Shown: piece by piece, positions 6,001 to 38,025 of the stretch
How the letters are laid out: each line of letters begins with the position of its first letter
How positions within the stretch are numbered: the first letter of the stretch is position 1
From: Phycisphaerales bacterium
GTDB lineage: Bacteria > Planctomycetota > Phycisphaerae > UBA1845
Length of the DNA: 38,185 nucleotides
Reading direction: 5' to 3'
NCBI GenBank assembly: GCA_013140575.1
Contig: JABFSN010000205.1
Span: 1-38,185 of the forward strand
Notes under the pieces: generated by a model
The model's input: the letters and a program-made list of their open reading frames with translations, nothing else
Told to the model about the DNA's origin: nothing
Database searches by the model: none
Translations under genes and position numbers: made by a program

Positions 6001-9000
6001 GCAGCACGTCGTCGTCATCGCCTCCGCGCACGCGATCGTCGGCCTCGCCGCCGTCGACGTAATCACGCCCCGCGCCGCCGTACAGGTTGTCCTCGCCCCA
6101 GCCGCTGAAAATGAAATCGCCGCCGTGCCCGCCGTGAATCTCGTCCTCACCATCGCCCGTTGGATTGTTGTTGGCATCGAACCGATCGCCGATCCGCGAC
6201 ACGCCCGCGATCGAAACCCCCATGCCCCCCAACGGCACTGTATTCAGGAATCCGTATCGCTCGCGATACGTCGTCGGATTGAACTGTTCGGCCACCTCGA
6301 ATCCCGGCGGCTCGATGAAATCACCCGCGTCACTGAAAAACTGCCGCCCGAAATCGGCAAGCGCCAGCCACTCGTCCGGCAGGTCGCCGCCCCAGATCAC
6401 GTCACCGATCGCCGTCGCCGGCAACGGCGCGCCTGCGTCGTCCTGACCCTCGTCATCTCCCCACACCAGATCGTCGCCAAATCCGGCCACCACCATGTCC
6501 AGACCGCCGCCGCCATAAACGTCGTCGTCACCCGTGCCCGACAGCACCGCGTCGTTCCCCGGACCGGTGATGCGAACGATGTCCGCCCCTTCGTGGCTGT
6601 ACACCAGGCTGTTCCCGCCCGTCGCCGCAATCAGAATGTCGTCGTCGCCCGCCTGACCGTAAACCGTGATCGCACCCGTCCCGGCCACGATGTCGATGTC
6701 GTCCGGACCGGCCAGCGGCCCGCTAACCCCCTCGGTTCCGGCGGCCGGGGCCGTCGGCACGACGGCGCTGTCGTCGCCGTACACCGTCACCGCGCCGCTG
6801 CCGAAATTGCGAACGATCAGATCATCGTCGCCCTCGGCCAAATCGACCGTGATCGGCCCGTTGGCGTGAATCTCGACGTCGTCGCGCATCCCGCCCGCGA
6901 GCGGACCGAACTCCCCGTCGCCGAACACGGTAATCGCACCGCTCGCCAGCACCCCGCTCGGCTTCCCGATCACGATGTCGTCCGACCCGTGATCGCCGAC
7001 CACCTTCACCGGCCCCAAACCCGCCCCGTTCACCGTCACGTCGTCGTCGTGCCCGCCGGCCTGAACCGTGATCATCGTGTTGCCGACGATGTTCACCACG
7101 TCCGCGCCCTGCATTCCCAGCGCAATGGCGCCCGCGGTCCCGTCGGCCAATACGTTGATCGCACCCGCACCGCCGCGAATCGTGACGAAATCACCTAATT
7201 CCGCGGCGTTCACGTGGATGACGCCCGGCGCGTACAGATCGATATGGTCAACGCCGCCGGTCGCCAGCGCGCCCGACATGGCGTCGCCGAACACATCCAC
7301 CTGCGTGGCGCTCGTCGGACTGAACATGCTGCCGAGATCAATGTCATCCGCACCGCCGCCGCCGATGATTTCCACATCGCCGGACACGGCGCCCAAAATC
7401 GTAACCGTGTCGTTCGCCGGACCGGCATCCACCGTCACGTCGCCGTCGGCCACGATGTCAATATCATCGGCCCCCGCGCTGCCCGGCCCGGCGGCCGGCG
7501 CCGGCGCGCCGATCAGGCCCGCGGCGCCGTCACCCAGCACCAGCACGTCGTCCGCCGGCCCCCGAATATCCACCTTGTCGCCGCCTTCGCCCGCGTCCAC
7601 CATCACCGGACCGGTCGCGAATATGCGGATGTCGTCGTTGGCACCGTTGGCATCGTCCACGCCCTCGGCATCGCCGAACACGTCGATCGCCCCACCGCCC
7701 GCCAGGATGTTCCCCGCGCTGCCCAGGTCGATGTCGTCGATGCCCGACCCGCCGATCACGCCGATCTCTCCATCGCCTTCGCCAACAATGGTGACATGAT
7801 CGTTGCCCGATCCGGCGTCCACGCGAATCCGCCCGTCGGCGTTGATGTTGACCGTCTCGTTGCCCTCGCGGCCGAACACGTCGACGTTGCCCACGCCGCC
7901 GGTGATGTTCACCGTGTCGTTCTCGGTCCCGGCGTCGACGAAAATGACGTCCGCCCCGGTCCCCGCGATCAGGATGTCGTCCATCCCCTGCCGGCCATGA
8001 ACCGTCGCGCTGCCCAGATACGTACGCACCACGTCATTGCCCGGACCCGCATCAACCGTGTCGATCCCCAGGTCGCCGTAGATGAAATCGCCGTGATCGT
8101 TCGGGCTGCCCGGCGCCGCCGCGTTCGGATCCTGCACGTCGCCGTAGATGGTGTGATTCTCGCCGATGGTCGCCCCGATCTGCGCGTTCCCCGCGAAAAT
8201 GCGGTCCTTGCCCCAGCCGCCCACGATCTCGTCGCTGCCCAGCCCGCCGATCAAGCCGGCTTGTTGACCGAACGCCATGCCGTCGTCATTGCCCAGCCCG
8301 CCGTCGAGGAAATCGTTGCCCGTCTCGCCGCGCAGCAGATCGCTTCCGTCGCCGCCGAACATGGTGTCGCCGCCATCGGCCCCGACCAGATCGTCGTTGC
8401 CGCCGACGCCGTGCATCACGTCAAAACCTTCGTTGCCCAGCAACACGTCGTTGCCCGAACCCGACAAACTCCCCTCGTTGATGACCCAGTCGCCCTCGGC
8501 ATTCAGCGCGGCCGTTCCGATGTCGCCGATCAGCGCGTCCATCCCCAGGCCGCCCTCGACCGTATCGTTGCCCTCGCCGCCGGACATCAGGTCGTCGTTC
8601 TCATCGCCGAGCATGTGATCGACGCCGGCGCCGCCGTCCATCACGTCGTTGCCCCGCCCGCCGAACATCTGGTCATCGCCGGCGCCGCCCAGCAGCATGT
8701 CCACGCCGGGGTCGCCGAAAATCATGTCGTTGCCTTCACCGCCCTCGACGTGGTCATCGCCCGTGCCGGCGTTGATGATGTCGGCGCCCTCGCCGCCGAA
8801 CAGCATGTCGTTCGCCCGGCCGCCGGTCAGCTTGTCGTTCCCGGCGTCGCCGTAGAACACGACCGCGCCCTTCGACGCCGTCAGCGTGTCATTCCCGGCG
8901 CCACCGTGAACCTCGACCGGGATTTCCAGCCCGCCCGCGACCACGATGCTGTCGTTGCCCGCGCCGGCGTCGGCGATCATCACCCGCTGCACGCCCGAAT

Positions 9001-12000
9001 ACGTCTGCCGCAGCCCGTACGCCTCGACGGTTACGTCGCCGGCGTTGTCGCCCGGCTTCAGAATAAACGACTCCGCCCCGTCGGCCGTGTCGCCGTGTTC
9101 GCGCATACCTGCCCGCGAGCCCACGTTGATGTTCAGCGTGCCCATGCCGTCCTTCTCGGCCAGCACTGGCGTGGTATCCGGCCGCGGCAGCGTGAACTCA
9201 AAAACGGTGACGTCGATGATGGTCACGTCGAAATTGAATATCAGCAGAATCTCGAGATAGGCCCGCAGGAACGCGTCGATCTTGGCGCTGATGTCAAAAA
9301 TGTGAATGCCCGCGTCGCCCAGATTGAAATTCTCGATCAGCTCGTTCAGCCGGAACTTCCCGTCGTCGTCCAAATCGTGCAGATTGAAATCGATCGTCCC
9401 GCGGATGCCGCCTTCCACGCCCGCCCGGCCGACGGCCACGTTCACTTCCACGCCCGCCGCGATCTCCACGACGAGCTGCACCTCGGGCACGTCCTCGCCC
9501 GCGTCGTTCAAATCCTTGATGAAGAACCCCTCGAATATCGCCCCGAAATTGTTGAAATCGCTTTCCGCGAACTGGCGAATGCCGTAGGTGTCGAAACCGA
9601 ACCCGAAATCGAAGAACGCCCCCACCGACCCCGTCACCTGGGCGCCCAGCGGCCCGATGATCGGGAAATACTGCGAATACTGGAATCCCAATCCGAACTT
9701 CGGGAAGTCGTATTCGATCATCGACGGATTGCCGCCCAGCAGAAGCTGGAACATCATCTCCGGATGCTCGAACATCGGGAAGCTGAATCCCACGTTCGCG
9801 CCCGCCGGCGTCGGCGTCGTCGGATCGATCCCCATCGCCCCCACGTTGCGGGCCATGTTGAACGCCATGCCCGCCTGCGACATCGGATCAACCTGACCCA
9901 GCGGATCCATCACAATCTGATCGATGGGCGACAGACCGCCCATCATGTTCTCGTCCATCGCGTCCGCGCCGCTGACCTGGAAACTGCCCACGTCGAGGAA
10001 CACGCTCCCGCCCATCGAATCGAAGTTGTCCAGGAAGTCGATCAGCTCGACCACGTCGACAACCGCCTCGATGAACTCGCCCACGTTCTCGAACTCGCTG
10101 GCGAAAATCTCGGCGATGTCGATCAGCGTCGTCGGTCCCGCCAGATCTGAAATCAGCGGAATCGGTGTGGTCAGAATCTCCACCACGTCCGCCGCCGGAC
10201 CGATGATGTCCCCCACCGAATCCACCACCGGCCCCAGTACGTCGCCGACCAGCGTCCCGAAATCCACACGCACGTCACGGAACCAAATCGTAGGCACCTC
10301 GTCGAAATCCAGCCCCGTGGCCGTGCTCGCCGACGCAGCCCAGTCCAGATCGAAGAAGAAATCCAATGACGGGAACTGCGCCAGACCCGCGAAACTGGCC
10401 GTCCCCTCCAGATTCAAATCCACATTCAGATTCGCAAACGCCTCGAAATCGGCCAGGCCGCTGAACACTTCCGTCAACGGGAATCGTCCGCTGCCCGCGG
10501 CCCCGTCGAGATCGATGCCGAACGAAAGCCCGAGCGAACTGGCGTCGTACTGGTCGCCGTCGTCGCCGAACGCGTCTTCGTCATTGATATCCAGTTGCAA
10601 GAACAACAACGAACCGGTGGCGTTGAAACCGGGGACGCTCGCCTCCAGGTCCAGCGTGATATCGTCGCCCTCGCCGAACGGATCGAAATTGAAGAACACC
10701 CCCTCGTCCAGATTGACGCCGATGCCCAGGTCCAGCTCGAACGACGACTTGAACGAAACCTCGCCCTCGGCCGCCAGACCCAGCCCCGGTAGGCCCACGT
10801 CGAAATCGAAACCCGAATCGCTGGGAATCAGTTCCATGTCCGGTTGACCGATCCGCATCCGGAACTCGATCGAATCGCCGTCGTCGATCACCACGATGTC
10901 TTCAATGTTGACGCCGGCGCCCGTCCCCGGCGCGTTCAACAGCCAACCCGTGTCGCCCAGCCCGTCGAACAGCGCCTGCCGCATCGCATCCACCGGGTCG
11001 AATCCGAACGATTCGCCCGCCGCCCGCGACGCCGCCTCGGCTTCGGTCAGCATCAGGTCGTCCGGGTCCAGCACGCCGATGACCGCGTCGCGCATCACGC
11101 CGAAAAAGTCGGACGCCGACTGAAGGTTGTCGCCGATGATCGGCAGCTCGATGCCCTCGAATTCGCCGTCGAGCGCGTCCTCCAGGAACCCCATCAGGCC
11201 GATCCAGCCGTCGACCAGCGCCGCCAGGTTGTCGCGCAACGACAGGCTGTCGAGCGCCGAACTGAAATCGGGAACCTGCGTGGTCGTCGTGCCCGCGATG
11301 TCCGTCAGATCGCCGATGGTCAGGTTCAACGCGCCGATCGAATTCGTCGCGGTCGGGAAAAACATGGGCAGATTGGCCATGATCTGCGCGTCGAGGTCGA
11401 TGGTTGCGTCCGAAAAATCGAGGTCCGCGATATCGATCCGGCCGTCGCTGTCGCTGTCGTCCAGACCGATGGTGAATCGCGCCGGCTGATTAATGTTGTT
11501 CCGCCGGCCGAGCGCGACCAGACCGTTCTGAATGAAGATGCCCAGCGGTCCCAGCGCCGCGGACATGTCCATGTCCGTGGCTCCCGCGCCCAGCGTCAGC
11601 ACGATCCCGGTGCTGTCGCGAATGAACGGCGTGGGGCTTAGCGGGTCGGACAAATCAATGCCGAAATCGAGCGCCAGCGCCGCCCCGCCGTTGACCTGCA
11701 TCAACGCGTCGCCGCCGACGTCGACCAGATTGCCCAATTCGTCGAGCCCGACCAATTCGCCGAGGTCCAGGTTTAGCGGCATCTGCTCCTGAAAACTGCG
11801 CATCCACATGAAACCGAAATTCAGCACCGGGCCGCCGCCCGCGGCGCCCGGAACGGCGGCGGCCGGGGTGGCCCCGACCGCGTCAAACGCCACCTCCACC
11901 AGATTGGCCGGGATCCCCAACGTTTGCGCCAGGCTCGACGCCAACGTTTGCAGGCTGGACGCCGGATTATCTTCAAACCGCTCGATGTCCTCGGCGAACA

Positions 12001-14752
12001 TGTCCACGAAGTTGATCAGGTCACTGATGCTCGTGTTCAGCAGCGGGAGCTCCAACTGGAAGAACTCATCGAACGCCTCGATGTCGCGGAAGAAATCGAG
12101 CAGGCCGCCGTCGCCGGTGAACGCGTGGATGATGTCGGCGATGCCCAGATGTTCGAAACTGGCCAAGTCCTCGAGATTCATCAACATCGGGTCGAAGACG
12201 TCCGGCGCGGCCGCGTCCCACACCATCATGATTCGCGGCCCCATCCCCGGCATGACCGACGGCTCGAGGTTCAGAATCTCCGCCTCGATCGGCAGGTTGA
12301 CCATGAAATGCCCGGTCGGCGTCGGCAGTCCGTTCCCATCGACGATGCCGTCGACATTGCCGTCCTTCACCGCGTCGATCAATTCCGAAAGGAATAGCTC
12401 GCCGCTGTCGTTCGGATCATCCAGACCGACGTTGATCTCCACGAACCCCGACGCCCCACCGTTCACCACGCCCAGGTCAACAAACCCGAACCGCGCCGTT
12501 GCGTCGATGTCGGCGGCGACCGCGTCGATTCGCCCCTCGAGAAACGCGTCGTCGCGGAAGAACATGCGATCGGCCAGCGACTCCCCGTGCAGCGCCGTGC
12601 CCTTGATCAGGAATTCGCCGCCCACCTGTTCGCCGCCCGCCAGCAATCCCAGAACGTAAATCGCAAACGAACTGTTCGCCGCCCGAACCGTGAAATTACT
12701 GTTCCCGGTGATGCCCGCCGGATGCACGAGGTCCAGTCCGTTCATGTCGCTGTTGATTCGGGCCATGTTCGGCACGGCCTGGTTGATCCGCGTGATGACC
12801 TGCCCGATCGTGGTGACGCCCTCGAGGTTGATGTTGTGTTTGACGCCGTTGCGGAGCGTGATGACCAACTCGTGGCCGCTGGATTTCAAGAATGCGGAAT
12901 CGGTAAACGACATGTCCTCGAATCCGGCGTTGGCCATCAACGAATTCAGCGTCGTCGCGTTGGTCAGAACGAAACTCGGCGCCAACTCTTCCAGCAGGAA
13001 TCCGAACGTGAACCCACCGGAAACGGTGGACATGATCGACATGTTGCTCGACGTGCTGAACCCGCCCAGCGCTTCCACCGGGAATTCGTAGTTGAAATTC
13101 AGCGGCTTCTGCGCCGCCAGCAGCGTCTCCGCGAACGAAACCTCGAACGTCAACTCGTGCGTCGCCGGGTTGTAGTTGGGCGTGATCGCCCCCGCCGGCG
13201 TCGGTTCCAACGCGTTGGACAACAACGTCGCCAGGCTTTGGATCGAGTTGAACGGCAGTCCCGACGCCTGCTGGTTCTGCTGGAACCCCACGCCCGCGCC
13301 GGTGTGGGTGATGCGCATGTTGCTGACCTTGCTGGGGTTGCCGATGAACTCGATACGCCCATCGGCGTTGTGGGCCTCCAACATGCCGCGGAAGTCGTTG
13401 TCGCTGTCCTGGGCAAACAGCTGATTCAACTTCGTCGTGATCTGGGCGTTGATCGCCGCCACCAGCGCGTCGGCGTTGGCGAAATTCCCGGACAGCGCGA
13501 TGGCCACGTTTTGCTCGTCGTTGATCCGCACGGTCAGCGTGGTGATGACGCTGCCGGTCGGTGCGTTGTTGTTGGCGGTCAGGCGGATGGACTGCAATTC
13601 CTCGGTGAAGGCTTCGGTAATGACCCCTCCCAGGTTCAGCGCCGACAGGTCCACACCCGACAGAAACGGCAAATCGAGTCCAAACACCTCGCTCGAACCG
13701 AAATTGTCGAACCAGTTGGCCAGTTGGTTAAACGCGCTGATCACCGCCGCCGGGGTGGCCACGTCGAAACTCAGGAACTGGTCCAGATTGGTCACGTCGT
13801 AATCGAACGATGGCCCGGTCCCGACGCCGAACAGGTCGGACACGGTCAGGTCCACCCGCGGCGATCCGGAAACCGAAAACAAGTTGCCAATGCCCCCGGT
13901 CAATTGCAGCGGAAACTCCGCTGCGATGCCCGACGTCGGATCGACGTTCAAGTCGGCCAGCGTGGCGATCGGCGTGTTCTGAAGTTGTGACAGCGTCTGA
14001 CGCTGTCCGTTGGCGATGTCGATGTCCAGCCCCGCGTGGAAATCGATCGATCCGTTGACCACGGACATGCCCAGGAACCCCAGCGTGGCCTGCGCATTCA
14101 AGGTTGGCGCGCTCGCGTCGATCGCCACAGTGAAATTCGGAATCTGTGCGAAAAACGCCGACGTATCCAGATCAACGCCGAACGTCACGTCCAGCACCAG
14201 GTCGGTGCTGATGTTCATGTTGGGCAAATCCAGCCCCAGCGCCAGATCGCCGCCACCCAGCTCAATCGGCTCGCGCGTCGCCAGATCGACCGATTGATTG
14301 GTCAATGATTCGTCGATGCGGACCGGAACGGTGGCCGACAGCTCGTTGTTGCTGCCGTTGAAATTCACCGTCCAGCCCATGCCCTCGAAAAACGACTCGA
14401 ACGCCGCGACATCGGGGTCCTTGTTCTCCGCGAAGAACGTGGCGATCTCGTTGATCACGTCCTCCTGAAACACATTGAACGCCGGCAGCCGCTCCAACAT
14501 GCTCCCGCCCACCAGCGGCAGCGGGGCCATGTAGGCGTCCTGCACCCCGACCGATTCCAGCACCGATCGGATGGCCAGCATCCCATTTCCGAAGGCCGTC
14601 GCGTCGCCCCCGTCGATCACCATGCCGGCCGCGCTGGCCCTGAAATGGTCCGGTCTCTCCACCGGAATTGGCGTGCCGCTCAACAGCACCCGCGGCTCCA
14701 GCGGTTCAAAACGAAAGCCCCCGTCGCGTACCCTCGGCTTGGACTTGCGCAC
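1..14752 (-). CDS. Giant LEPR-XLL, RTX-repeat calcium-binding surface/secreted protein (3' end outside window)
   Basis: An open frame of at least 4917 codons begins at GTG 14752 and leaves the window without a stop; I read most of it and saw no break. The N-terminus has LEPRVLLS at residues 18-25, the LEPR-XLL motif known from the start of very large planctomycete proteins and presumed to be a sorting signal. Order after that: a long beta-rich, Asp-rich region (about 40-1900) with EF-hand-like loops; RTX nonapeptides of GGxGxDxx type (about 1940-2180); a non-RTX beta-repeat block (about 2225-2700); RTX (about 2730-3120); two flagellin-IN-like modules (about 3150-3400); RTX (about 3455-3540); PPC-like domains with DxDWYxF motifs (about 3820-4300); RTX (about 4415-4680); a golvesin/xanthan-lyase C-terminal-like domain (about 4760-4895). 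RTX repeats bind calcium and fold outside the cell. The role is probably adhesion, matrix or S-layer-like; the substrate is unknown. The divergent cluster at 15218-21970 may export it. Confidence 0.9.
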   Translation of the reverse strand, partial: MRKSKPRVRDGGFRFEPLEPRVLLSGTPIPVERPDHFRASAAGMVIDGGDATAFGNGMLAIRSVLESVGVQDAYMAPLPLVGGSMLERLPAFNVFQEDVINEIATFFAENKDPDVAAFESFFEGMGWTVNFNGSNNELSATVPVRIDESLTNQSVDLATREPIELGGGDLALGLDLPNMNISTDLVLDVTFGVDLDTSAFFAQIPNFTVAIDASAPTLNAQATLGFLGMSVVNGSIDFHAGLDIDIANGQRQTLSQLQNTPIATLADLNVDPTSGIAAEFPLQLTGGIGNLFSVSGSPRVDLTVSDLFGVGTGPSFDYDVTNLDQFLSFDVATPAAVISAFNQLANWFDNFGSSEVFGLDLPFLSGVDLSALNLGGVITEAFTEELQSIRLTANNNAPTGSVITTLTVRINDEQNVAIALSGNFANADALVAAINAQITTKLNQLFAQDSDNDFRGMLEAHNADGRIEFIGNPSKVSNMRITHTGAGVGFQQNQQASGLPFNSIQSLATLLSNALEPTPAGAITPNYNPATHELTFEVSFAETLLAAQKPLNFNYEFPVEALGGFSTSSNMSIMSTVSGGFTFGFLLEELAPSFVLTNATTLNSLMANAGFEDMSFTDSAFLKSSGHELVITLRNGVKHNINLEGVTTIGQVITRINQAVPNMARINSDMNGLDLVHPAGITGNSNFTVRAANSSFAIYVLGLLAGGEQVGGEFLIKGTALHGESLADRMFFRDDAFLEGRIDAVAADIDATARFGFVDLGVVNGGASGFVEINVGLDDPNDSGELFLSELIDAVKDGNVDGIVDGNGLPTPTGHFMVNLPIEAEILNLEPSVMPGMGPRIMMVWDAAAPDVFDPMLMNLEDLASFEHLGIADIIHAFTGDGGLLDFFRDIEAFDEFFQLELPLLNTSISDLINFVDMFAEDIERFEDNPASSLQTLASSLAQTLGIPANLVEVAFDAVGATPAAAVPGAAGGGPVLNFGFMWMRSFQEQMPLNLDLGELVGLDELGNLVDVGGDALMQVNGGAALALDFGIDLSDPLSPTPFIRDSTGIVLTLGAGATDMDMSAALGPLGIFIQNGLVALGRRNNINQPARFTIGLDDSDSDGRIDIADLDFSDATIDLDAQIMANLPMFFPTATNSIGALNLTIGDLTDIAGTTTTQVPDFSSALDSLSLRDNLAALVDGWIGLMGFLEDALDGEFEGIELPIIGDNLQSASDFFGVMRDAVIGVLDPDDLMLTEAEAASRAAGESFGFDPVDAMRQALFDGLGDTGWLLNAPGTGAGVNIEDIVVIDDGDSIEFRMRIGQPDMELIPSDSGFDFDVGLPGLGLAAEGEVSFKSSFELDLGIGVNLDEGVFFNFDPFGEGDDITLDLEASVPGFNATGSLLFLQLDINDEDAFGDDGDQYDASSLGLSFGIDLDGAAGSGRFPLTEVFSGLADFEAFANLNVDLNLEGTASFAGLAQFPSLDFFFDLDWAASASTATGLDFDEVPTIWFRDVRVDFGTLVGDVLGPVVDSVGDIIGPAADVVEILTTPIPLISDLAGPTTLIDIAEIFASEFENVGEFIEAVVDVVELIDFLDNFDSMGGSVFLDVGSFQVSGADAMDENMMGGLSPIDQIVMDPLGQVDPMSQAGMAFNMARNVGAMGIDPTTPTPAGANVGFSFPMFEHPEMMFQLLLGGNPSMIEYDFPKFGLGFQYSQYFPIIGPLGAQVTGSVGAFFDFGFGFDTYGIRQFAESDFNNFGAIFEGFFIKDLNDAGEDVPEVQLVVEIAAGVEVNVAVGRAGVEGGIRGTIDFNLHDLDDDGKFRLNELIENFNLGDAGIHIFDISAKIDAFLRAYLEILLIFNFDVTIIDVTVFEFTLPRPDTTPVLAEKDGMGTLNINVGSRAGMREHGDTADGAESFILKPGDNAGDVTVEAYGLRQTYSGVQRVMIADAGAGNDSIVVAGGLEIPVEVHGGAGNDTLTASKGAVVFYGDAGNDKLTGGRANDMLFGGEGADIINAGTGDDHVEGGEGNDMIFGDPGVDMLLGGAGDDQMFGGRGNDVMDGGAGVDHMLGDENDDLMSGGEGNDTVEGGLGMDALIGDIGTAALNAEGDWVINEGSLSGSGNDVLLGNEGFDVMHGVGGNDDLVGADGGDTMFGGDGSDLLRGETGNDFLDGGLGNDDGMAFGQQAGLIGGLGSDEIVGGWGKDRIFAGNAQIGATIGENHTIYGDVQDPNAAAPGSPNDHGDFIYGDLGIDTVDAGPGNDVVRTYLGSATVHGRQGMDDILIAGTGADVIFVDAGTENDTVNITGGVGNVDVFGREGNETVNINADGRIRVDAGSGNDHVTIVGEGDGEIGVIGGSGIDDIDLGSAGNILAGGGAIDVFGDAEGVDDANGANDDIRIFATGPVMVDAGEGGDKVDIRGPADDVLVLGDGAAGLIGAPAPAAGPGSAGADDIDIVADGDVTVDAGPANDTVTILGAVSGDVEIIGGGGADDIDLGSMFSPTSATQVDVFGDAMSGALATGGVDHIDLYAPGVIHVNAAELGDFVTIRGGAGAINVLADGTAGAIALGMQGADVVNIVGNTMITVQAGGHDDDVTVNGAGLGPVKVVGDHGSDDIVIGKPSGVLASGAITVFGDGEFGPLAGGMRDDVEIHANGPITVDLAEGDDDLIVRNFGSGAVTVYGDDSAVVPTAPAAGTEGVSGPLAGPDDIDIVAGTGAITVYGQAGDDDILIAATGGNSLVYSHEGADIVRITGPGNDAVLSGTGDDDVYGGGGLDMVVAGFGDDLVWGDDEGQDDAGAPLPATAIGDVIWGGDLPDEWLALADFGRQFFSDAGDFIEPPGFEVAEQFNPTTYRERYGFLNTVPLGGMGVSIAGVSRIGDRFDANNNPTGDGEDEIHGGHGGDFIFSGWGEDNLYGGAGRDYVDGGEADDRVRGGDDDDVLLGGLNSDILRGGEGIDQLYGNEGDDFEFADHGQLGGAFPNDQAGQRLWGGAGFDYLYAYSPSFETETEFDKIGDELRGGTGGDYLYGNTRMDLLLGGDDNDYLHGDYLEGPTYPRNTLAAENRETDDGDFVGSADTLYGGFGQDQLYGGAGNDTMFGGRDPDWVEGQDGNDRAFGGNGVDILVLDVDGNYHVLGDDFDGFFGNEAEADVADAREVDILLVEGDKTRAQINPFNDNIILTETDVAITGDRNLPANGRLGVGTTATFMVTLTGSGVPMESFAVSVPNDPANLNIDNLITDVNTALTAALNGAGLPSTSVRAVRAGDRIRLQTVGLGQFSELLVTNANTTTANVLGIAADAFIDAFVTGGAALPADGSMGGAAQFRVTINGTGVNQQAINVTVADESLTLDGLVAAVDLAINAALQAASLPSDAVRALRVGDFLRLETNGLGAPGTITLSNLNATAMNLFGLTTGQSGGPLTAIAGRQLINVDYSGRSIYVGWRNRAGLPLVEQFQISGLMGRDVIEAHLSDATIEQLANETPGDPWVTVISGGPGEDIVRGSQGRDRINGGPGSDQLYGFGGNDRIWGAEFGGDPVLDIDQLFAGQGNDDLIGGNNQTQFYAWSVHPEVSANQVSSFDVEDFLADGPGDDFGVYVDDAGNLTLDDGGGAFEFEDTGLNRFLGSDNETTTDYFFGGTGLDFMFGNGGGGATGDRLVTRRGVEFQDEEGLLFADDAWKEYARSTDQVWYLGASAADDTIEVDFVTNPYNPFFGRHVVTLSTDGAFDPRFSGFDNATAYDGSGDPTHEMMDEVYEAETELMVAAVEVTENLGEPDIAAVPMDTHDRLDDPFSLTPFDLINELLGEEDFLAIIIDALGGDDHVVVGETVQTSVWVDAGPGNDLVEIEPQLSFLPDVTDPVGNRNDAREDAYPLGDTAAPGTVGTGSDTHGAGGAILEPIGLDNSVFTGLTIDSARSDNPDIDWYRFLIAPETPTTPGDELQLIPLHDNDDIDLVFSLFDAAGNPEGETAVIGTVLLPLNGRLTANAQFTLNTDVVLVTAAATAENETRGDLIDDINAAIVSPNFNASLDDGRLRIETVGFGPGASLNIAGATLATTDQLGLRNSHAAVVVPLLSGLETSLDEETTVRVESVGNIPTDYAVVFAMAALEDGPDTLLTPTGQPLGDTRQTAFVLDTDRPINRIDDVVGLTLHESSDEDWYAFTLGETSGTNPIRLTSHTPTTAMRIELYHANDVAPIAAATTSADDAHVQVELGPTAEPQFAGDEIYYIRVVRQAVVNHPGERGRYDLFLNVGTAVQADTVVDDPFVLPSLDQVLPVLDESLNLPGEEAWYQLTLSEPARPGEGIAIRSVGAFSDLDANIYQILDPGFLAGSGAVTIDDLINQGDVTPALATVHTGELVDFGAATVVVDRGVQVIDLANLGPDVPDTAVSYLIGVTVAERDLDDNGVPDPTAIGYELFSISTGVEKTRLNLVAGASEDLSGRTPLDRRDVIVGGTGNDRMVGGTGEDWVLGGAGNDVLSGGVDRQASDLLWGGPGDDIFQVIPDAQPIVPSTGRNGDPRFLDDVLTGDAALADMFDGGAGDDQVLFLGGNEGADGVPIRDFVAIGYDRFLHRYRLTALLWDQGNHVFVADPATGRFAQEYAYFQSRDIERTVIDTGDGVDVVHADGGYIFNGETWGVARGDVQDNGLAYQSIEIRGGEGKDWLYGGAGVDIIYGEGNKDFIAGGEGDDHILGGAGNDELSGNEGLFAVPNPNQLPGDPDDDYLYVGFSELPPNTPDDVTQPGGGALVGDPLVQDVYPFDSNIAFPLSADRPRPTGIDLPGRTISDNSGGAERGYTETSPNWAVGPAASFGGSSRQHLRAAQSNAAAAEWVFEGLPAGEYEVFASWPGDPVTPNVSRATNTPYEVFVDGEAASELTIRVNQRIAPPDVLDSQGWRWQRLGVVVVEDGIIRVRLNNDANGTVLADAIHIVPVNSFLRDAFAMEGLDGAEG

Positions 14753-14759
14753 TTCGTCA

Positions 14760-14765
14760 CTCCTT
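14760..14765 (-). promoter_or_regulatory. Ribosome binding site AAGGAG that fixes the giant gene's GTG start
   Basis: On the minus strand AAGGAG lies 7 nt before GTG 14752. No in-frame ATG lies closer, and this start places the LEPR-XLL motif 18 residues from the N-terminus, as is usual for that motif. Confidence 0.8.
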
Positions 14766-15217: not shown

Positions 15218-15610
15218 ATGGCTGACTCGAAACGGACGGAAAACGCCGATTCCAAGCGCGGCGAAAACGCGGAAATGCAGGTCGAACAACAAGCGCAGGA
15301 ACAGACCGGTCAGCGGCAGGTCCGCCTCCGCATCGATCAGCGCGACGTGCGTACCACGTACGCCAACGGCTTCCGCACCCAGTTTACGGCCGAGGAGGTC
15401 ATCATCGATTTCGGCGTCAACCTCGTCGAGCAGGCCACCACCCCCCAAAAAAGCGACGCCACCATCAACTGCGTGTTTTCCGTCGGCGATCGCGTGGTCA
15501 TGAATTACTACTCCGCTAAGCGGTTGGCCATTTCACTCGGACAGCAGATCCGGCGTTACGAGGAGCAGTTCGGCCCGTTGGAGTTGAACGTGGCCAAGCG
15601 CCGAAAATAA
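15218..15610 (+). CDS. DUF3467 domain protein
   Basis: A 130-residue protein. The first 35 residues are charged and Gln/Glu-rich (KRTENADSKRGENAE, then EQQAQEQTGQRQ), probably disordered. The remainder matches the DUF3467 pattern: YANGFRTQFTAEEVIIDFGVN near residues 48-70, then VFSVGDRVVMNYYSAKRLAISL and RYEEQFGPLE. The family has no established function; members are small and cytoplasmic. It is the first gene of the plus-strand cluster and is followed after 37 bp by the GAF-HlyD gene, so the two are probably co-transcribed. The ATG is preceded by a weak purine-rich AAACGGA. There is no signal peptide or membrane segment. Confidence 0.85.
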   Translation: MADSKRTENADSKRGENAEMQVEQQAQEQTGQRQVRLRIDQRDVRTTYANGFRTQFTAEEVIIDFGVNLVEQATTPQKSDATINCVFSVGDRVVMNYYSAKRLAISLGQQIRRYEEQFGPLELNVAKRRK

Positions 15611-15647: not shown

Positions 15648-17564
15648 TTGGAGCGTGTCGCTAGACCAACGTCCGTCGGCGAGTCGGGACCGTCGGTCTC
15701 ATTCGAACAACTGGCCCATTTTGAAGGCCCGCCGGACGAGTTTCTCGATCATCTGCTCGCGGGGCAATGCTCCCTCGCCGATGCCGAACGCGGCGCCATT
15801 CTGCGCATCAACCCCGACGGCGCGGTTCAACCGTTGGCCGTCCACCCCCGATTGCCCCGGTCGGCGACCACCGCCGTGTGGCTGGCGATGGCCGCCGAAT
15901 CCGCGCGGCGTTTGATTTCGTCCGACGCCGGCACGAGCGTGCTGCCGCTGCGCGAAGGCGAGTCGGACAACCCGAATGCCCTGCAGCGTCATCTGCTGAC
16001 GCTTCCCATCCGCAGCACGTCCGCGGTCCGGGGCGCGGCCGCTTTCGTCATCGCCATTGACCCCCGGGCGCCGGCTTCCGAACTTCCCGCCCGCCGCGAA
16101 CGACTCGAATTGTCGATGCAGTTGCTCAGCCTCTACGAAATGCGGCTGACGCTCGACGCCCGCGAAACCGACCTGCGGCACATGAAAGTCGCCCTGGAAG
16201 TCTCGGCCGCGGTAAATGCCCACGACCGCTTCGTGAGCGCGGCGATGGCATTGTGCAACGAGGTCGCCTCGCGCTGGCACGGGCAGCGCGTCGGGCTGGG
16301 CTTTCTGAAGGGGCGGTATGTCGTGTTGCGGGCGATGAGCCACACCGAGAGATTCGATCGCCGCATGCAGTTGATTCAGGACCTCGAGGCCGCCATGGAG
16401 GAATCGCTCGATCAGGACGTCGAGGTGCTCCATCCGCCCGATGCGTCGGCCGGTTACGTCTCCCGTGCGACCGGGAACTTTTCCCAACGGCACGGCCCGG
16501 TCGCGGTGGTCAGCGTTCCCATTCGCGGGCCGTCCCTGATCGGCGCCTCCGCGGGTGAAGATTCTGCCGAGCCGCGCGCCGTGCTGACAATCGACCGCCC
16601 CATCGACGACCCATTCGACGCGGCGCAGATTCGCACGCTTCGCCTGGCCTGCGACTTGTGCGCCACCCGGCTCGTCGACCTATACCAACGAGACCGTTGG
16701 TTCGGCGCCCGGGCCGCCGCGAGCGCCCGCCGGGGACTGGCCACGCTGATTGGGCCGACGCACACCTGGGCCAAGTTGTTGTCGCTCCTGGGATTCGCGG
16801 CGATTCTGTTTCTGGCGTTTGCCCGCGGCCATTACCGCGCCGAGGGTTCGTTTGTCATCGAACCGACCCGTCGCCAGATCGTTTCGGCCCCGTTTGACGG
16901 CTATCTCGAAAGCGTGCACGTGAAGATCGGCGACCCGGTTCAGGCCGACGTGACGGTTCTTGCGGATTTCGAGACGGCCGAGTTGCGATTGCAGTTGGCG
17001 TCGGCCCGCGCCGAGGCGACCGCGGAACGCAAGCGCGCGGCGCTCGCCCGCCGGCAGGGCAAGGAAGCCGAGGCCCAGATCGCCGACGCCGACGCCGCCC
17101 GGATCGACGCGCAAATCGATCTTCTCGAACATACCATCGGTCAGGCGGCAATCCGATCGGCTACCAGCGGCGTGGTCGTGGTCGGCGATCTCGAACGCCG
17201 TCTGGGCGCGCCGTTCAAGACCGGAGACCTTCTCTTTGAAGTGACGTCTTTGGAGGATCTTCGGGCGGAGATCGCCGTCCCCGAGGACCAGATTTCCGAC
17301 GTTCGCGTTGCGCAGACCGGGCAACTTGCCACTGCGTCGTTCCCCGGCGACTTCCTGCCGTTCGTGGTGGAACACATCAATCCAGTGGCCGAGGTGTTGC
17401 AGGACCAGAATGTCTTCAAGGTCCGCGTCCGTCTCGACGAGTCGCGACCCTGGCTCCGTCCGGGTATGGCCGGAACGGGCAAGATCGACGTGGATCGGCG
17501 CAGTTACTTGTGGATCTGGACCCGGCGGTTCGTCAACTGGGTGCGTATGAAGCTTTGGATTTAA
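15648..17564 (+). CDS. GAF domain-HlyD membrane-fusion (periplasmic adaptor) protein
   Basis: A 638-residue fusion. Residues 1-375 are cytoplasmic; about 185-355 look like a GAF domain (VSAAVNAHDRFVSAAMALCN, then VVSVPIRG and a LTIDRP strand). One membrane segment follows (LLSLLGFAAILFLAFA, about 377-393). After it come a HlyD-type lipoyl half (VSAPFDGYLESVHVKIGDPV), an Ala/Glu/Arg-rich coiled coil (about 440-490), the second lipoyl half (SATSGVVVVGDLERRLGAPF) and a beta-barrel ending RPGMAGTGKIDVDRRS. HlyD adaptors bridge the inner membrane and an outer channel in export systems; a GAF sensor on the cytoplasmic side is unusual. The start is the only start-like codon after the upstream stop: TTG 15648 with a weak GAAAG 8 nt before it, so the start is uncertain. 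The partner is probably the M50-HlyD gene downstream. Confidence 0.85.
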   Translation: MERVARPTSVGESGPSVSFEQLAHFEGPPDEFLDHLLAGQCSLADAERGAILRINPDGAVQPLAVHPRLPRSATTAVWLAMAAESARRLISSDAGTSVLPLREGESDNPNALQRHLLTLPIRSTSAVRGAAAFVIAIDPRAPASELPARRERLELSMQLLSLYEMRLTLDARETDLRHMKVALEVSAAVNAHDRFVSAAMALCNEVASRWHGQRVGLGFLKGRYVVLRAMSHTERFDRRMQLIQDLEAAMEESLDQDVEVLHPPDASAGYVSRATGNFSQRHGPVAVVSVPIRGPSLIGASAGEDSAEPRAVLTIDRPIDDPFDAAQIRTLRLACDLCATRLVDLYQRDRWFGARAAASARRGLATLIGPTHTWAKLLSLLGFAAILFLAFARGHYRAEGSFVIEPTRRQIVSAPFDGYLESVHVKIGDPVQADVTVLADFETAELRLQLASARAEATAERKRAALARRQGKEAEAQIADADAARIDAQIDLLEHTIGQAAIRSATSGVVVVGDLERRLGAPFKTGDLLFEVTSLEDLRAEIAVPEDQISDVRVAQTGQLATASFPGDFLPFVVEHINPVAEVLQDQNVFKVRVRLDESRPWLRPGMAGTGKIDVDRRSYLWIWTRRFVNWVRMKLWI

Positions 17565-17780: not shown

Positions 17781-19952
17781 ATGCCGACATTAAGAACCAC
17801 GTTCAGCGAATCCTGGCACAAGGTCGCGGCTTTGACCCCGCGACTGCGAACGACGGTGCACATCTATCGCCAGCAATACCGCGGCGAAACGTGGCACGTG
17901 GCCCGCGACACGGCCAATAACCAACATTTCCGCCTCAACGATCCCGGCTATCGATTCGTCGCCCTGTTGGACGGCCGCCGGTCGGTTGCCGACGCGTGGA
18001 ACCTCTGCAACGAGGCTCTCGGCGACAAAGCCCCAACGCAAAACGAAGTCATTCAATTGTTGGGACAATTGAACGCCGCGAACCTCCTTCACGGCGAACT
18101 GCCGATCGACGCGGGAATGCTCTTCCGCCGGTATCGCACCCGAGTGCGTCGGGAGATTCAGGGACGACTGTCGAGCATTCTCTTCGCCCGGATTCCACTT
18201 CTGGATCCCAATCATTTTCTAGGTCGCTGGGTCTGGCTCTTCGGGCGCCTGTTTACGCCCCTCGGCGCCATGGCCGTCGCCGTAGTGTTGATTGTCGCAT
18301 TGGCCACTCTTGCCTCCCACCAAAGCGCGCTCTACAGCGGTACTTCCGCCGTCCTCAGCCAGGACAATCTGCCGTGGCTGTATCTCTGCTTCGTTCTGAC
18401 GAAAGTGCTGCACGAATTCGGACACGGATTCGCCTGCAAGCGATTCGGCCGGCGAAACGGATCCGGCGGCGACGTGCATGAAATGGGAGTGATGCTGCTG
18501 GTCTTCACGCCGGTACCTTATGTGGACGCATCGAGCGCGTGGACGTTTCGCAGCAAGTGGCAGCGCATCGCCGTCGGTGCAGCCGGCATGTGTGTTGAAT
18601 TTTTGCTGGCCGGCACGGCTGCCATTGTCTGGGCCAACACTTCCGATGGCACACTCACGCACGCTCTTTCCTATAATGTGTTGTTCATCTCGGGTGTTTC
18701 GACGTTTCTGTTCAATGCGAATCCACTTTTGCGTTACGATGGGTATTATATCCTGTCGGACCTTCTGGAGATCCCGAACCTCGCCCTGCGGAGCCGGCAG
18801 TATCTCTATTATCTGGTCAAGCGCCACGCCTGGGGCGTGAAGGGCGCCATCAATCCCGGCGGAGGCGGCGAACGTTACTGGCTCTTTTCCTATGCCGTCG
18901 CATCCACGGTCTACCGGGTCTTTATCGGCGTCTTCATCATACTGTTCATTGCCGACAAGCTTTTCTTCGTCGGGGCGCTGCTCGCGGTGGGCGCGATCGT
19001 GACTTGGGTGCTTGTGCCGCTGGTCACGCTGGTGCGCTATTTGGCCACCAGCGGCGAACTGTCCCGCGTCCGCCGTCGGGCCATTAACAGCACGGCAATT
19101 GCCTTCGGCGTCTCACTGATCTTTATCTGTCTTGTCCCGGCGCCCGACCATCTCCGCGCCGACGGCATCGTCGAGCCGCGGCGGATGGCATTTGTCTATG
19201 CCGGCGCCGATGGGTTCATCCGAAGTGCCGCAGCGTCCGGAGCGTCGGTCCGCCAGACGGAGACTCTGCTCGTCGAGACCGAGAACCGTCAATTGGCCGC
19301 GGCTTTGGACGCCCTTGCAGCTGACAAACGCCGGACCGAGGTCCGCCGGAAATGGGCTTTGCGCGACAGCGAGGTGGCCGCTTTGCAGGTCTTTAACGAG
19401 CAGAACGCGGCATTGGATGACCAGATCAGGCGGCGGGAAGACGATCTGACTTCGCTCCGCGTCTTTCCGCCGTTCGACGGCACATGGATTTCACCGGAAA
19501 TCCGCGACTTGATCGGCGTCTATGTCCGCCAGGGCGACCCGCTGGGCATGGTTGCCGACGTGACCGACTATCGCATACGCGCGACGGCCGATCAATATGC
19601 GGCCGCCCTACTGATGACCGACGCAAGCGGCCGGGTCGAAATCCGCGGCCGCTCACGGCCCGATATTCAATGGCGGGGGACGGTCGCCGAGATTTATCCC
19701 GCAGGTCAACACCAACTGCCGTCGCAGTCGCTCAGCGTACTGGCCGGCGGAAATGTGGAAGTGTCCGCCGACGATCCCACCGGGCGCAAATCGGCCGACC
19801 CATTCTTCGAAATACGCATCGACGTCGACGGCACCCAGTCGCTTTTCACCGGTCAGCGCGTCGTCGTCCGGTTCGACCTGCCGGCCAAGCCGCTGGCGCT
19901 GCAATGGTGGCGATCGATCGAACAATTGATTCAGAAACGATTCCGGGTCTGA
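17781..19952 (+). CDS. PqqD/RRE-like - M50 site-2-protease-like - HlyD-like fusion
   Basis: A 723-residue membrane protein. Residues about 26-108 resemble PqqD/RiPP-recognition (RRE) domains: HIYRQQYRGETWHV, FRLNDPGYRFVALLDGRRSV and an APTQNEVIQLLGQL helix. Then come several membrane helices with HEFGH at 211-215 and NPLLRYDG at 314-321, the two zinc-ligand motifs of the M50/site-2 protease family, so the catalytic residues look intact. After the last helix (about 430-450) is an HlyD-like part: a lipoyl half-motif (AGADGFIRSAAASGASV), a coiled coil (about 500-550), the second lipoyl half (FPPFDGTW to YVRQGDPLGMV) and a barrel (about 590-710). This matches proteins often called putative peptide zinc metalloproteases. 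It likely recognises and cleaves or passes on an exported polypeptide. The SecA-like gene starts 2 bp downstream. Start: ATG 17781 with only a weak upstream GGTCGATG. Confidence 0.85.
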   Translation: MPTLRTTFSESWHKVAALTPRLRTTVHIYRQQYRGETWHVARDTANNQHFRLNDPGYRFVALLDGRRSVADAWNLCNEALGDKAPTQNEVIQLLGQLNAANLLHGELPIDAGMLFRRYRTRVRREIQGRLSSILFARIPLLDPNHFLGRWVWLFGRLFTPLGAMAVAVVLIVALATLASHQSALYSGTSAVLSQDNLPWLYLCFVLTKVLHEFGHGFACKRFGRRNGSGGDVHEMGVMLLVFTPVPYVDASSAWTFRSKWQRIAVGAAGMCVEFLLAGTAAIVWANTSDGTLTHALSYNVLFISGVSTFLFNANPLLRYDGYYILSDLLEIPNLALRSRQYLYYLVKRHAWGVKGAINPGGGGERYWLFSYAVASTVYRVFIGVFIILFIADKLFFVGALLAVGAIVTWVLVPLVTLVRYLATSGELSRVRRRAINSTAIAFGVSLIFICLVPAPDHLRADGIVEPRRMAFVYAGADGFIRSAAASGASVRQTETLLVETENRQLAAALDALAADKRRTEVRRKWALRDSEVAALQVFNEQNAALDDQIRRREDDLTSLRVFPPFDGTWISPEIRDLIGVYVRQGDPLGMVADVTDYRIRATADQYAAALLMTDASGRVEIRGRSRPDIQWRGTVAEIYPAGQHQLPSQSLSVLAGGNVEVSADDPTGRKSADPFFEIRIDVDGTQSLFTGQRVVVRFDLPAKPLALQWWRSIEQLIQKRFRV

Positions 19953-19954
19953 CC

Positions 19955-21970
19955 ATGCCCCAGGTTTCCCCCACTGTCGTGACGCCTGCGGTCGTTCCCA
20001 GCCTCTCCTGGCGAAGTCTGTCGAAACCTGCGCGGCCGCGGCGTTTACCGGCAGGTCTTGATGCGGGATGGGACCGTTTGCACGGGGTCTTCCGACGGGT
20101 GGAGCGGCGGTCGCGGCTCTTTCTGCGGCGGGCCGACGATGTTCTTGCAAGGGAGCGCGAAATCGGGGATCTGTCCGACGCGCCCTTGCAGAGCGCCGCG
20201 GGGCAATTGGCCGAACGATTTCGCCGCCGGCGCGAGTCGCCCGTTGATCTGGATCGCGCCTTGGCGATTCTGCGCGAGGTCGCGTTCCGCAAGCTCGGCG
20301 AGCGTCCCTACCGCGAACAGATCGCCGGGGCGCTGGCCTGCGACGCCGGCTGCATTTGCGAAATGGCCACCGGCGAAGGCAAGACGCTGGTCGCGGCCAT
20401 TGCGGCCACTCTGGCCGGCTGGCGCGGCCGGGGCTGCCATGTGGTGACGGTCAATGATTATCTCGCCGGGCGCGACGCCGAATGGATGGGAAACCTGTTT
20501 CGATTCTGCGGACTTTCCGTCGGGTTCATTCAAAACGAGACGCCGCCGGTCGGACGCCGCCTCGCCTACGCCGCGGACATCACTTATGCAACGAACAAGG
20601 AGGTGACCGCGGACTATCTGCGCGACCGACTGGTCCTTGGCGGTCGCCGCAACCTGCCGGAAGTGTTGTTGGACGGGATGGCCGGTCGTTTTGACGCCCA
20701 GGCCCATCTCGTGCAGCGCGGTCTGCACTGTGCGATCGTCGACGAGGCCGATTCGGTGCTGCTGGACGAGGCCGTCACGCCGCTGATCATCTCCGGCGAG
20801 GCGCCCAACGCCGAGCAGGTGCAGTGTTACGCGGAGGCGGCGGCAATCGCGGGTCGGCTGAAACCGGTCGAACATTACGCCGTCAATCGCCGCTATAACG
20901 AGATCACCATGACCGACGTTGGCCGCGACGGGCTGGCCCGGGAAGTGGCGTCGTTGGGCGGCGTCTGGCGTTCGATGCGGCGGGCCGAGGAACTGGTGAC
21001 GCAGGCGTTGTCCGCCCGGGAATTTTTCCACCGCGACATGCAATACGTCGTTGCCGATGGCAAAATCGTCATCGTCGATGAATCCACCGGCCGGACCATG
21101 CCCGACCGCACCTGGCGCGACGGATTGCATCAGGCCATCGAGGCTCGCGAGGGCGTGACCATCAATCCGCCCAAGACGACGCACGCCCGGGTCAGTTTTC
21201 AACGGTTCTTTCGTATGTACGACAAGCTGTCGGGTCTGACGGGCACGGCCGTCGAGGGTCGCGGCGAATTCTGGCGGGTCTATGGTTTGCCGGTGACGGT
21301 GATCCCCACGCATCGGCCGGTTCTACGCCGGCGGCATCCCGACCGTTGCTACGCGACCGGGGCCGCGAAATGGCGCGCCGTCGTCGAGGATGTGCGTCGG
21401 GTGTACGACGAGGGGCGGCCGGTTCTGATCGGCACACGGAGCGTCAAGGACAGCGAACACGTCAGCTCGATGCTGTCGGCCGCGGGCCTTGAACACCGCG
21501 TGTTGAACGCCGTTCGCCATGCCGAGGAGGCGCAAATCGTCGCCGAGGCCGGTCAACCGGGCGCCATCACGGTGGCCACCAACATGGCCGGTCGTGGAAC
21601 CGACATCAAATTGGGGCGCGGCGTCGCGGAACTGGGCGGGTTGCACGTCATCGCCACCGAACGCCACGCGGCCGGGCGCATCGACCGTCAGTTGTTCGGC
21701 CGGGCGGCGCGGCAGGGCGACCCGGGATCGGCCATCGCCATGGTCAGCCTCGACGATGAATTGATCGCCCGTTACGCGCCCGTCGGGCTGCGGATTCTGC
21801 GGAAGGTGGCGACGGACAATCCCGAGGGGTTTTCGAACCGATCGGCGCGCGGCGTATTCGATCGCGCGCAACGCCGCGCCCAGCGCATCGCGTTCGCGCA
21901 GCGCCGGGCCGGCCTTCAAACCGACGACTGGCTTGATGAATTCCTGGGATTCGCAGGGGACCGGTTCTGA
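19955..21970 (+). CDS. SecA-type translocation ATPase paralogue, short form
   Basis: A 671-residue SecA-like protein, against about 850-950 for housekeeping SecA. NBD1: MATGEGKT Walker A at 137-144 and DEAD-box DEAD at 263-266, followed by TPLIISG. A preprotein cross-linking domain lies between them and NBD2 (VDESTGRTMPDRTWRDGLHQ near 375). NBD2: LTGTA, NMAGRGTD at 543-550 and the arginine-rich RIDRQLFGRAARQGDPGS at 575-592. The ATPase looks competent. Only about 75 residues follow VSLDDEL, so the helical wing and scaffold C-terminal part and the zinc-binding tail of SecA are missing. The first 60 residues are Arg/Pro-rich. The start at ATG 19955, 2 bp after the M50 stop, with no clear Shine-Dalgarno, suggests translational coupling. 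An earlier in-frame start would overlap the M50 gene by 150 codons and is rejected. It is probably the motor of a dedicated export route. Confidence 0.88.
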   Translation: MPQVSPTVVTPAVVPSLSWRSLSKPARPRRLPAGLDAGWDRLHGVFRRVERRSRLFLRRADDVLAREREIGDLSDAPLQSAAGQLAERFRRRRESPVDLDRALAILREVAFRKLGERPYREQIAGALACDAGCICEMATGEGKTLVAAIAATLAGWRGRGCHVVTVNDYLAGRDAEWMGNLFRFCGLSVGFIQNETPPVGRRLAYAADITYATNKEVTADYLRDRLVLGGRRNLPEVLLDGMAGRFDAQAHLVQRGLHCAIVDEADSVLLDEAVTPLIISGEAPNAEQVQCYAEAAAIAGRLKPVEHYAVNRRYNEITMTDVGRDGLAREVASLGGVWRSMRRAEELVTQALSAREFFHRDMQYVVADGKIVIVDESTGRTMPDRTWRDGLHQAIEAREGVTINPPKTTHARVSFQRFFRMYDKLSGLTGTAVEGRGEFWRVYGLPVTVIPTHRPVLRRRHPDRCYATGAAKWRAVVEDVRRVYDEGRPVLIGTRSVKDSEHVSSMLSAAGLEHRVLNAVRHAEEAQIVAEAGQPGAITVATNMAGRGTDIKLGRGVAELGGLHVIATERHAAGRIDRQLFGRAARQGDPGSAIAMVSLDDELIARYAPVGLRILRKVATDNPEGFSNRSARGVFDRAQRRAQRIAFAQRRAGLQTDDWLDEFLGFAGDRF

Positions 21971-32147: not shown

Positions 32148-32867
32148 ATGCGAAATGTCATGACCATCACCCGGCGGGAATTAGCCGCCTGGTTCTATTC
32201 CCCGATGGCCTACGGGGTCATCACCCTTTTTCTGGTGCTCGCGGGCATCATGTTCGACCTGCTCACGTTTGAACCGGGGGCGGAGGCGTCCATCCGCGGC
32301 GTCTTCGGCCCGTGGATGCTGCTCATTCTCGCCTTCATGCTGGCCATGCTGACCATGCGTCTGCTCAGCGAAGAATACCGCAACGGCACGATTGAAACGT
32401 TGATGACCGCCCCAGTCACCGACGCCGAGGTCATCGGCGGCAAGTACCTCGGCGCCCTCGTTTTCTACGCCGTCATGCTCCTCGGCACACTGATCTATCC
32501 CGTCCTCGTCTCGAAATACGGCGGACTCGATTCCGGATTGACGTTCGCGTGTTACCTGGGACTGCTGCTCACCGGCGCGCTCTACATCGCCGTCGGACTG
32601 TTCTTCAGCGCCTGCACCCAGAACCAGATCGTCGCCGGGCTGGCCGCGTTCGTCGTTCTGGCCGTTTTCACCTTCCTGACCAACTTCATCGGCCAGATGC
32701 AGGAGGGCACGCTCCGGGTGACGCTGCAACACCTGTCGGTGGCCGAACATTACGAAAGCTTCATGCGCGGCATGATCGACTTCACCCATGTAACCTTCTT
32801 CATCACCACGACGGCCGTCTTCCTGTTCCTGGCCGTCAAGGCACTGGAGTTCCGGCGATGGCGGTAG
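32148..32867 (+). CDS. ABC-2 type permease, GldF-like
   Basis: 239 residues with about six membrane helices, among them YGVITLFLVLAGIMFDLLTF, WMLLILAFMLAMLTM, FYAVMLLGTLIYPVLV and FFITTTAVFLFLAVKAL. The short conserved piece RLLSEEYRNGTIETLMTAPV between helices 2 and 3 is typical of ABC-2/GldF permeases. It forms the membrane channel for the ATPase at 31136. AAAGGAG lies 10 nt before the ATG. The last 10 bp overlap the start of the GldG-like gene. Confidence 0.92.
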   Translation: MRNVMTITRRELAAWFYSPMAYGVITLFLVLAGIMFDLLTFEPGAEASIRGVFGPWMLLILAFMLAMLTMRLLSEEYRNGTIETLMTAPVTDAEVIGGKYLGALVFYAVMLLGTLIYPVLVSKYGGLDSGLTFACYLGLLLTGALYIAVGLFFSACTQNQIVAGLAAFVVLAVFTFLTNFIGQMQEGTLRVTLQHLSVAEHYESFMRGMIDFTHVTFFITTTAVFLFLAVKALEFRRWR

Positions 32868-35023: not shown

Positions 35024-35029
35024 CGGGTT

Positions 35030-37480: not shown

Positions 37481-37990
37481 ATGGATCTGCTCCTCATCCG
37501 CCACGGCGAGGCGTTGCCCGTCGGTCGCGACGGCATCGCCTCCGATTACGACCGCGTTCTGTCCAACATCGGCAAGCGCAAGAGCACGGCCGCCGGCGAA
37601 GCCCTGACCCGCCTCGGGGTCCATCTCGACGCCATTCTGTTCAGCCCGTTGCCTCGCGCCGAACAGACCGTCGGCGCGCTGGTCGAACGCTTCGAAGGTC
37701 ATCCCGCCTGCCGCGCCTGCCCGGAAATGGCCCCCGGGGCCAATTGGGACACGCTGGTGAAGGAACTGCGCCGCAACAGCGAATTGTCGGCCATCGCCCT
37801 CGTCGGTCACGAACCCGATCTGTCCGGCATGGCCGCCCGCGTCCTCGGCGGCGACGATCTGCCCCGCTTGATCTTCCACACCGGCTCGATCGCCTGCATC
37901 CACCTGGAACTGAAGTCCGATCCGCCCGACGCATCCCTCCGTTGGTTCCTCGACTCCGCCCAACTCGAATGGATCGCCCGCGGGCAGTAG
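37481..37990 (+). CDS. sixA: Phosphohistidine phosphatase SixA-like (histidine phosphatase superfamily)
   Basis: 169 residues, about the SixA size of 160. The catalytic RHG is at 7-9, the second conserved block is SPLPRAEQT near 49-57, and the GHEPDLS motif with the second histidine is at 109-115. These are the histidine phosphatase catalytic features; SixA removes phosphate from phosphohistidine on signalling or PTS proteins. Its ATG follows the DUF4340 stop without a gap (TGA|ATG), so it is translationally coupled to the transport operon, although why is unclear. It is the last gene in the window on this strand. Confidence 0.85.
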   Translation: MDLLLIRHGEALPVGRDGIASDYDRVLSNIGKRKSTAAGEALTRLGVHLDAILFSPLPRAEQTVGALVERFEGHPACRACPEMAPGANWDTLVKELRRNSELSAIALVGHEPDLSGMAARVLGGDDLPRLIFHTGSIACIHLELKSDPPDASLRWFLDSAQLEWIARGQ

Positions 37991-38025
37991 TCGACGAGAC
38001 GGAAGAGCGATACTGGTGTCGTTTT

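Follow-up and report, generated by a model that had tools for sequence, protein, structure and literature searches.

The closest described counterpart of the locus analyzed here was reported by Kamneva, Poudel and Ward in 2015 (PMC4452313). As given in the main text of that paper, the locus consists of a secondary SecA_DEAD protein, an M50-HlyD protein, a GAF-HlyD protein, an HlyD protein and sometimes an OEP, contains no ABC transporter, and occurs in PVC bacteria, Proteobacteria and Nitrospirae. The authors suggested a function in secretion, with the SecA-like protein as the ATPase and the M50 protein as the pore, and called the biological role of the locus 'completely unknown' (PMC4452313); the main text makes no mention of PqqD, LEPR or a giant cargo. 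The cassette described below is the same as the one in that account, to which we add the RRE/PqqD domain and the links to LEPR and to giant cargo. What is new is the cargo link, which connects LEPR-XLL giants to the 2015 locus; the cassette itself was already known. Surface proteins of giant size, many thousands of residues long, occur widely among bacteria, and we found no description of an export route for LEPR-XLL proteins in open-access papers; other prior work may exist.

A second point of comparison is daptide biosynthesis, where an RRE domain fused to a site-2 protease (MpaP/DapP) is found beside precursors that share an ELExMEAP motif and has been assigned leader removal. Daptide products are cut just after this motif, and the mutational proof of a contact between RRE and leader concerns MpaB, not the protease (PMC10036551, PMC12338566). 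The 723-residue protein at the center of our locus shares with MpaP/DapP an N-terminal RRE fused to an M50 intramembrane protease, and among curated families its nearest relative is NF041824, the daptide metalloprotease, at 167 bits against a cut-off of 300. In contrast to the daptide enzyme, it carries a C-terminal HlyD arm and is accompanied by no RiPP enzymes, and its putative cargo reaches up to 18,012 residues instead of a short peptide. An alignment of MpaA ELDPMEAP with LEPR spans few residues only and was not used as evidence.

Three other systems show partial similarity. Type I secretion systems share HlyD-type adaptors, a TolC-type channel and RTX-repeat cargo with the cassette, which differs in having a SecA-like ATPase core, no ABC exporter and an N-terminal tag. 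In accessory SecA2 systems, too, the housekeeping SecA is joined by another SecA-like ATPase, whereas the cassette protein has neither the helical scaffold domain (HSD) nor the C-tail, scores under the curated cut-offs and is paired with HlyD proteins. The EpeP/YydH epipeptide proteases share the M50 core and are thought to couple cleavage and export, but the match to them scores 35 bits against a cut-off of 225, and no RRE-HlyD fusion has been described for them (PMC10885120).

The window, meaning the whole 38,185-nt stretch of DNA analyzed, belongs to an assembly of 5.05 Mb in 268 contigs, and the named relatives point to a Phycisphaerae-type planctomycete as its most likely source. Its minus strand (2–14752) encodes a giant protein of at least 4917 residues with RTX calcium-binding repeats, which runs off the window. 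The GTG start (14752) is preceded by an AAGGAG Shine-Dalgarno sequence 7 nt upstream (plus-strand positions 14760–14765). Residues 13–30 of the giant match the NCBIfam model for LEPR-XLL (NF012209) at 27.0 bits, over a cut-off of 17, and this match is the only one in the genome. Placed close to the start of a long protein and scoring over the curated cut-off, the motif, FRFEPLEPRVLLSG (14663–14716, minus strand), qualifies as a LEPR-XLL domain. The leader consensus consists of a basic stretch followed by [FL]E-x-LEPR-x-LLS-[AG]-D, and a search for a hydrophobic signal core in LEPR-XLL leaders, that of the window's giant included, revealed none.

The cassette is transcribed divergently from the giant, on the plus strand, in the order DUF3467, GAF-HlyD, RRE-M50-HlyD and HSD-less SecA-like ATPase. 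The first gene (15218–15610) encodes a DUF3467 protein (PF11950, 62 bits), and the second (15648–17564, start codon uncertain) an adaptor with PF16576 and PF13437 above cut-off and a GAF domain below the Pfam cut-off. The RRE-M50-HlyD fusion (17781–19952) has an ATG start. The SecA-like protein (19955–21970, 671 residues) aligns to residues 8 to about 606 of Bacillus subtilis SecA only, hence it is without the helical scaffold domain and C-tail, and the alignment and the curated scores (611 bits versus 814; under every SecA and SecA2 cut-off in NCBIfam) agree that it does not have the full SecA architecture. It retains the preprotein-crosslinking domain (PPXD; Pfam), and a full-length SecA is encoded elsewhere in the same genome. 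No OEP (TolC-type) gene was found in the window; one may be encoded elsewhere. The cassette contains no ABC exporter, and no ABC family occurs among its widely recurring neighbors.

A scan of public genomes with the 723-residue protein as query yielded 80 named loci in Planctomycetota, Verrucomicrobiota, Proteobacteria, Nitrospirota, Desulfobacterota, Omnitrophota and Rokubacteria; because the loci were picked by similarity to the query, the counts describe this subfamily. Of the 73 loci that could be assessed, 70 have a GAF-HlyD gene upstream of the M50 gene and 67 a SecA-like gene directly downstream of it. A further HlyD gene is present in 49 of the 80 loci and an OEP (TolC-type channel) in 25, as well as in 9 of a set of 40 loci; DUF3467 precedes the cassette in other genomes as well. 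Since the gene order recurs across phyla, the arrangement is not due to chance. Homologues of the M50 protein occur in 32 of 149 sampled genomes of the phylum and 67 of 101 of the class, and are absent, with the cassette, from every one of the five genomes of the same family that the class sample includes. A misbinned contig was considered and rejected, as the ClpX beside the cassette is 77–79% identical to that of same-family genomes. The cassette is patchy within the family, which suggests gain or loss.

The cassette and the LEPR-XLL leader occur in the same genomes. In Planctomycetota, a strong M50 match (E<1e-100) is found in 8/8 genomes with a LEPR-XLL protein versus 3/141 others (8/0/3/138; p=3e-11), and in the window's class an M50 match is found in 43/44 versus 24/57 (43/1/24/33; p=4e-10). 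The corresponding numbers for Gammaproteobacteria, with a threshold of E<1e-70 chosen after the hits were seen, are 16/19 versus 6/255 (16/3/6/249; p=2e-18). All three p values treat genomes as independent, which sampled genomes are not. The association is incomplete: among the 22 gammaproteobacterial genomes with a strong M50 match, 6 have no LEPR-XLL match, and the same holds for 24 of the 67 genomes of the class that encode the M50 protein. Conversely, 23 of 30 cassette genomes picked by their M50 match encode LEPR-XLL proteins, the longest frame reaching 18,012 residues. When these 23 genomes were checked, a leader-bearing frame and the M50 gene lay no more than 15 kb apart in 12, on the same strand in 10. 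Among the first 40 homologue loci of the phylum, the window included, only 3 have a leader protein adjoining the M50 gene.

Complete operons stand on finished plasmids. Methylosinus plasmid pMSC49a carries a giant (LEPRVLLNAD), DUF3467, HlyD, RRE-M50, SecA-like, HlyD and TolC genes, and a finished Alisedimentitalea plasmid carries giant, HlyD, M50 and SecA genes. The annotated start of the Alisedimentitalea giant misses the leader, and a 5' extension of the frame exposes LEPRLLLAAD. Genome-wide co-occurrence and physical linkage strongly support the pairing of the 723-residue protein with LEPR-XLL proteins. The original prediction is supported in part, on the pairing; its model had no place for a second adaptor, a TolC partner or the SecA-like ATPase, and did not take in the 2015 description. 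Conservation of leader and cassette across phyla makes LEPR-XLL proteins a candidate substrate class for the 2015 locus.

The 723-residue protein has an AlphaFold model with a pLDDT of 86.9, computed with 40 homologues, in which a β-β-β-α-α-α N-terminal domain leads into a membrane core of helices and then into the adaptor arm. The core contains a Peptidase_M50 domain (residues 202–288; 28.7 bits, Pfam cut-off 27.2) with a HEFGH zinc-binding motif (residues 211–215, 18411–18425) and the NPLLRYDG third-ligand motif of site-2 proteases (residues 314–321, 18720–18743). HExxH is invariant in 41 homologues, as are the N and D of the second motif. HExxH, N-P-x-x-x-x-D and a Pfam score over cut-off together define the protein as an M50 site-2 protease. 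None of the four zinc-ligand and catalytic positions (H, E, H, D) varies within this set, so the protease looks active. The C-terminal arm (19137–19892) is an HlyD/membrane fusion protein domain, with the barrel-sandwich and hairpin fold, by its HlyD_D23 match (PF16576, residues 464–641; 34.2 bits, Pfam cut-off 30) and by Foldseek matches to MacA, MexA and AcrA, with E values down to 1.8e-12. An RRE-like domain ahead of an intact zinc protease and an HlyD-like arm, the architecture first proposed for this gene, is thus borne out by Pfam, invariant residues, AlphaFold and Foldseek.

The N-terminal domain (17832–18095) is of the RRE/PqqD type. Its PF05402 match (residues 43–103, 17907–18089) scores 21.4 bits when the whole protein is searched and 25.9 bits in the genome search, against a cut-off of 23.4; the genome holds a second PqqD match, at C12. 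A true PqqD of PQQ synthesis was rejected, with 14.7 bits for TIGR03859 against an equivalog score of 46. Modelled alone, the domain reaches a pLDDT of 87.2, and the order of its three strands and three helices, with a wing, fits a winged helix. The five best PDB matches in Foldseek are complexes of TbiB1 with a lasso leader peptide (E 0.018–0.047, which is modest; probability about 1), and TglHI and LynD, likewise RRE proteins, rank lower. Modest as the E values are, the consistency of these matches is telling. A structure prediction without a winged-helix RRE fold had been named beforehand as grounds for abandoning the proposal; the predicted fold is present, and RRE–leader complexes head its matches.

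Because the cassette is found together with leader-tagged giants across several phyla, and often beside them, it is likely the machine that recognizes, trims and exports these proteins. In this dedicated LEPR-XLL exporter, the 723-residue protein is probably the subunit that handles recognition and maturation at the inner membrane. The cytosolic RRE domain would capture the N-terminal leader of the nascent giant, a probable step with good, though indirect, support from the co-occurrence and linkage of leader and cassette and from the daptide RRE-site-2 protease as nearest studied relative. The SecA-like ATPase core, as Kamneva et al. proposed earlier for the ATPase, may then power feeding of the unfolded chain; its action as a motor on polypeptide is putative, since the HSD with its two-helix finger is missing. 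The chain would then reach a TolC-type channel in the outer membrane by way of the M50 membrane part and/or the HlyD arms, with the GAF-HlyD adaptor taking part. The M50 active site, by analogy with the daptide RRE-site-2 protease, would more plausibly than otherwise clip the leader. The reading suggests that leader recognition by RRE domains may also serve protein export and, if true, would mean that RRE-based substrate choice is not confined to small natural products but includes bacterial proteins of the largest size.

It is unlikely that the M50 part is instead a pore or gate that leaves the leader uncut and retains the protease signature for a zinc-dependent structure. Such a reading would fit the proposal of Kamneva et al. 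that the M50 protein is a transmembrane pore (PMC4452313) and the cleavage and export together attributed to EpeP, another M50 protein (PMC10885120). Against it, the 41 homologues keep HExxH and NPxxR/KxD with little or no variation, as catalysis would predict.

Covariation of RRE and LEPR-XLL sequences, a check set for RRE-mediated reading of the leader, gave a divided answer. In 33 leader/protein pairs, leader distances correlate with those of the RRE (Mantel r=0.49, p=0.0002), and equally with those of the core (r=0.53) and the HlyD part (r=0.50; each p=0.0002). With the core accounted for in a partial Mantel test of the same pairs, the correlation of leader and RRE drops to r=0.07 (p=0.24), so there is none beyond the rest of the protein. 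At the sequence level, the covariation therefore supports co-inheritance, not RRE specificity.

A distant M50-HlyD subfamily was compared as well. NF012209 matches occur in 1/16 of its genomes versus 16/22 (p=4e-5), but it was rejected as a clean negative control because several of its loci lie beside variant leaders that score under the model cut-off. M50-HlyD loci without a SecA-like gene also stand beside leader-like proteins, which begin LEPRMMFDGA, LEQRVVLDAA or LEPRVMLSAD, so the SecA-like part is not universal. The N-terminal domain of these SecA-less relatives is diverged yet homologous to the RRE-like domain (hhalign, 96.6%). Their position beside leader-like proteins hints that leader proteins have their constant partner in RRE-M50-HlyD rather than in the SecA-like protein. 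Variants LEPRMMFDGA and LEQRVVLDAA are encoded beside distant M50-HlyD genes, and LEDRILLDAN in a genome that has such a gene on another contig (L257 9430–17738, L258 5915–10479, L247 7490–19999). By their sequences, these three variants point to a leader family wider than the one that NF012209 models.

These results also bear on the distinctly improbable case that the cassette exports LEPR-XLL proteins while another component, the PPXD of the SecA-like protein or the N-terminus of GAF-HlyD, reads the leader, and the RRE-like domain has another ligand or a structural role. Retention of the PPXD would suit such a reader, as does the finding that leader similarity follows the M50 core no less than the RRE. 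What speaks against it is an RRE fold whose top matches are leader-bound RREs, the persistence of that domain in SecA-less loci beside leader-like proteins, and the daptide precedent. With the RRE as reader, we put at about even the chance that the whole forms a distinct giant-protein secretion system, in which the SecA-like core would take the place of an ABC exporter in a TolC/HlyD conduit, an adaptor-fused intramembrane protease would remove the LEPR-XLL leader, and SecA-less variants would serve related leaders such as LEPRMMFDGA and LEQRVVLDAA.

A daptide-like RiPP pathway, in which the substrate of the M50 protein would be a short precursor that escaped notice, with the giants as bystanders, is very improbable: the daptide metalloprotease is the best NCBIfam relative, yet under its cut-off, no daptide gene cluster or recurring daptide-type enzymes were met among the neighbors, the recurring ones being HlyD, SecA-like and OEP proteins, and co-occurrence with LEPR-XLL is strong. 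Regulated intramembrane proteolysis with a GAF sensor in place of secretion is hardly credible. In its favor are the core, which is that of a site-2 protease, and the weakly matching GAF domain; against it, the same loci hold a SecA-like ATPase, channels of the TolC type and HlyD adaptors, two or three in number, and no recurring anti-sigma factor was found among conserved neighbors.

Several smaller observations concern the window and individual genomes. ARAGORN calls a tRNA-Ile(TAT) at 21247–21340 (plus strand), inside the SecA-like gene, which is probably a false positive, and two long frames on the minus strand (32750–36583 and 36926–38170) are without any Pfam match. In Neptuniibacter caesariensis MED92, a SecA-less group (L240 4027–16697) comprises HlyD, M50-HlyD, HlyD and a 2553-residue LEPRVMLSADP protein, and the same genome holds a second, giant-first system with a SecA-like gene. 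On pMSC49a, the annotation labels the gene in the SecA-like position (L261 16204–18120) 'prepilin peptidase' and calls the M50 protein a 'PqqD family protein', which hides the system from searches by annotation. The plasmid of Alisedimentitalea scapharcae (L264 1–678, minus strand) carries a 24-kb calcium-binding protein gene whose deposited start drops about 50 leader-holding residues. The 18,012-residue open frame belongs to Thiomicrospira microaerophila (L274 / G266 C10), with LEQRILLSAD as its LEPR-XLL match.
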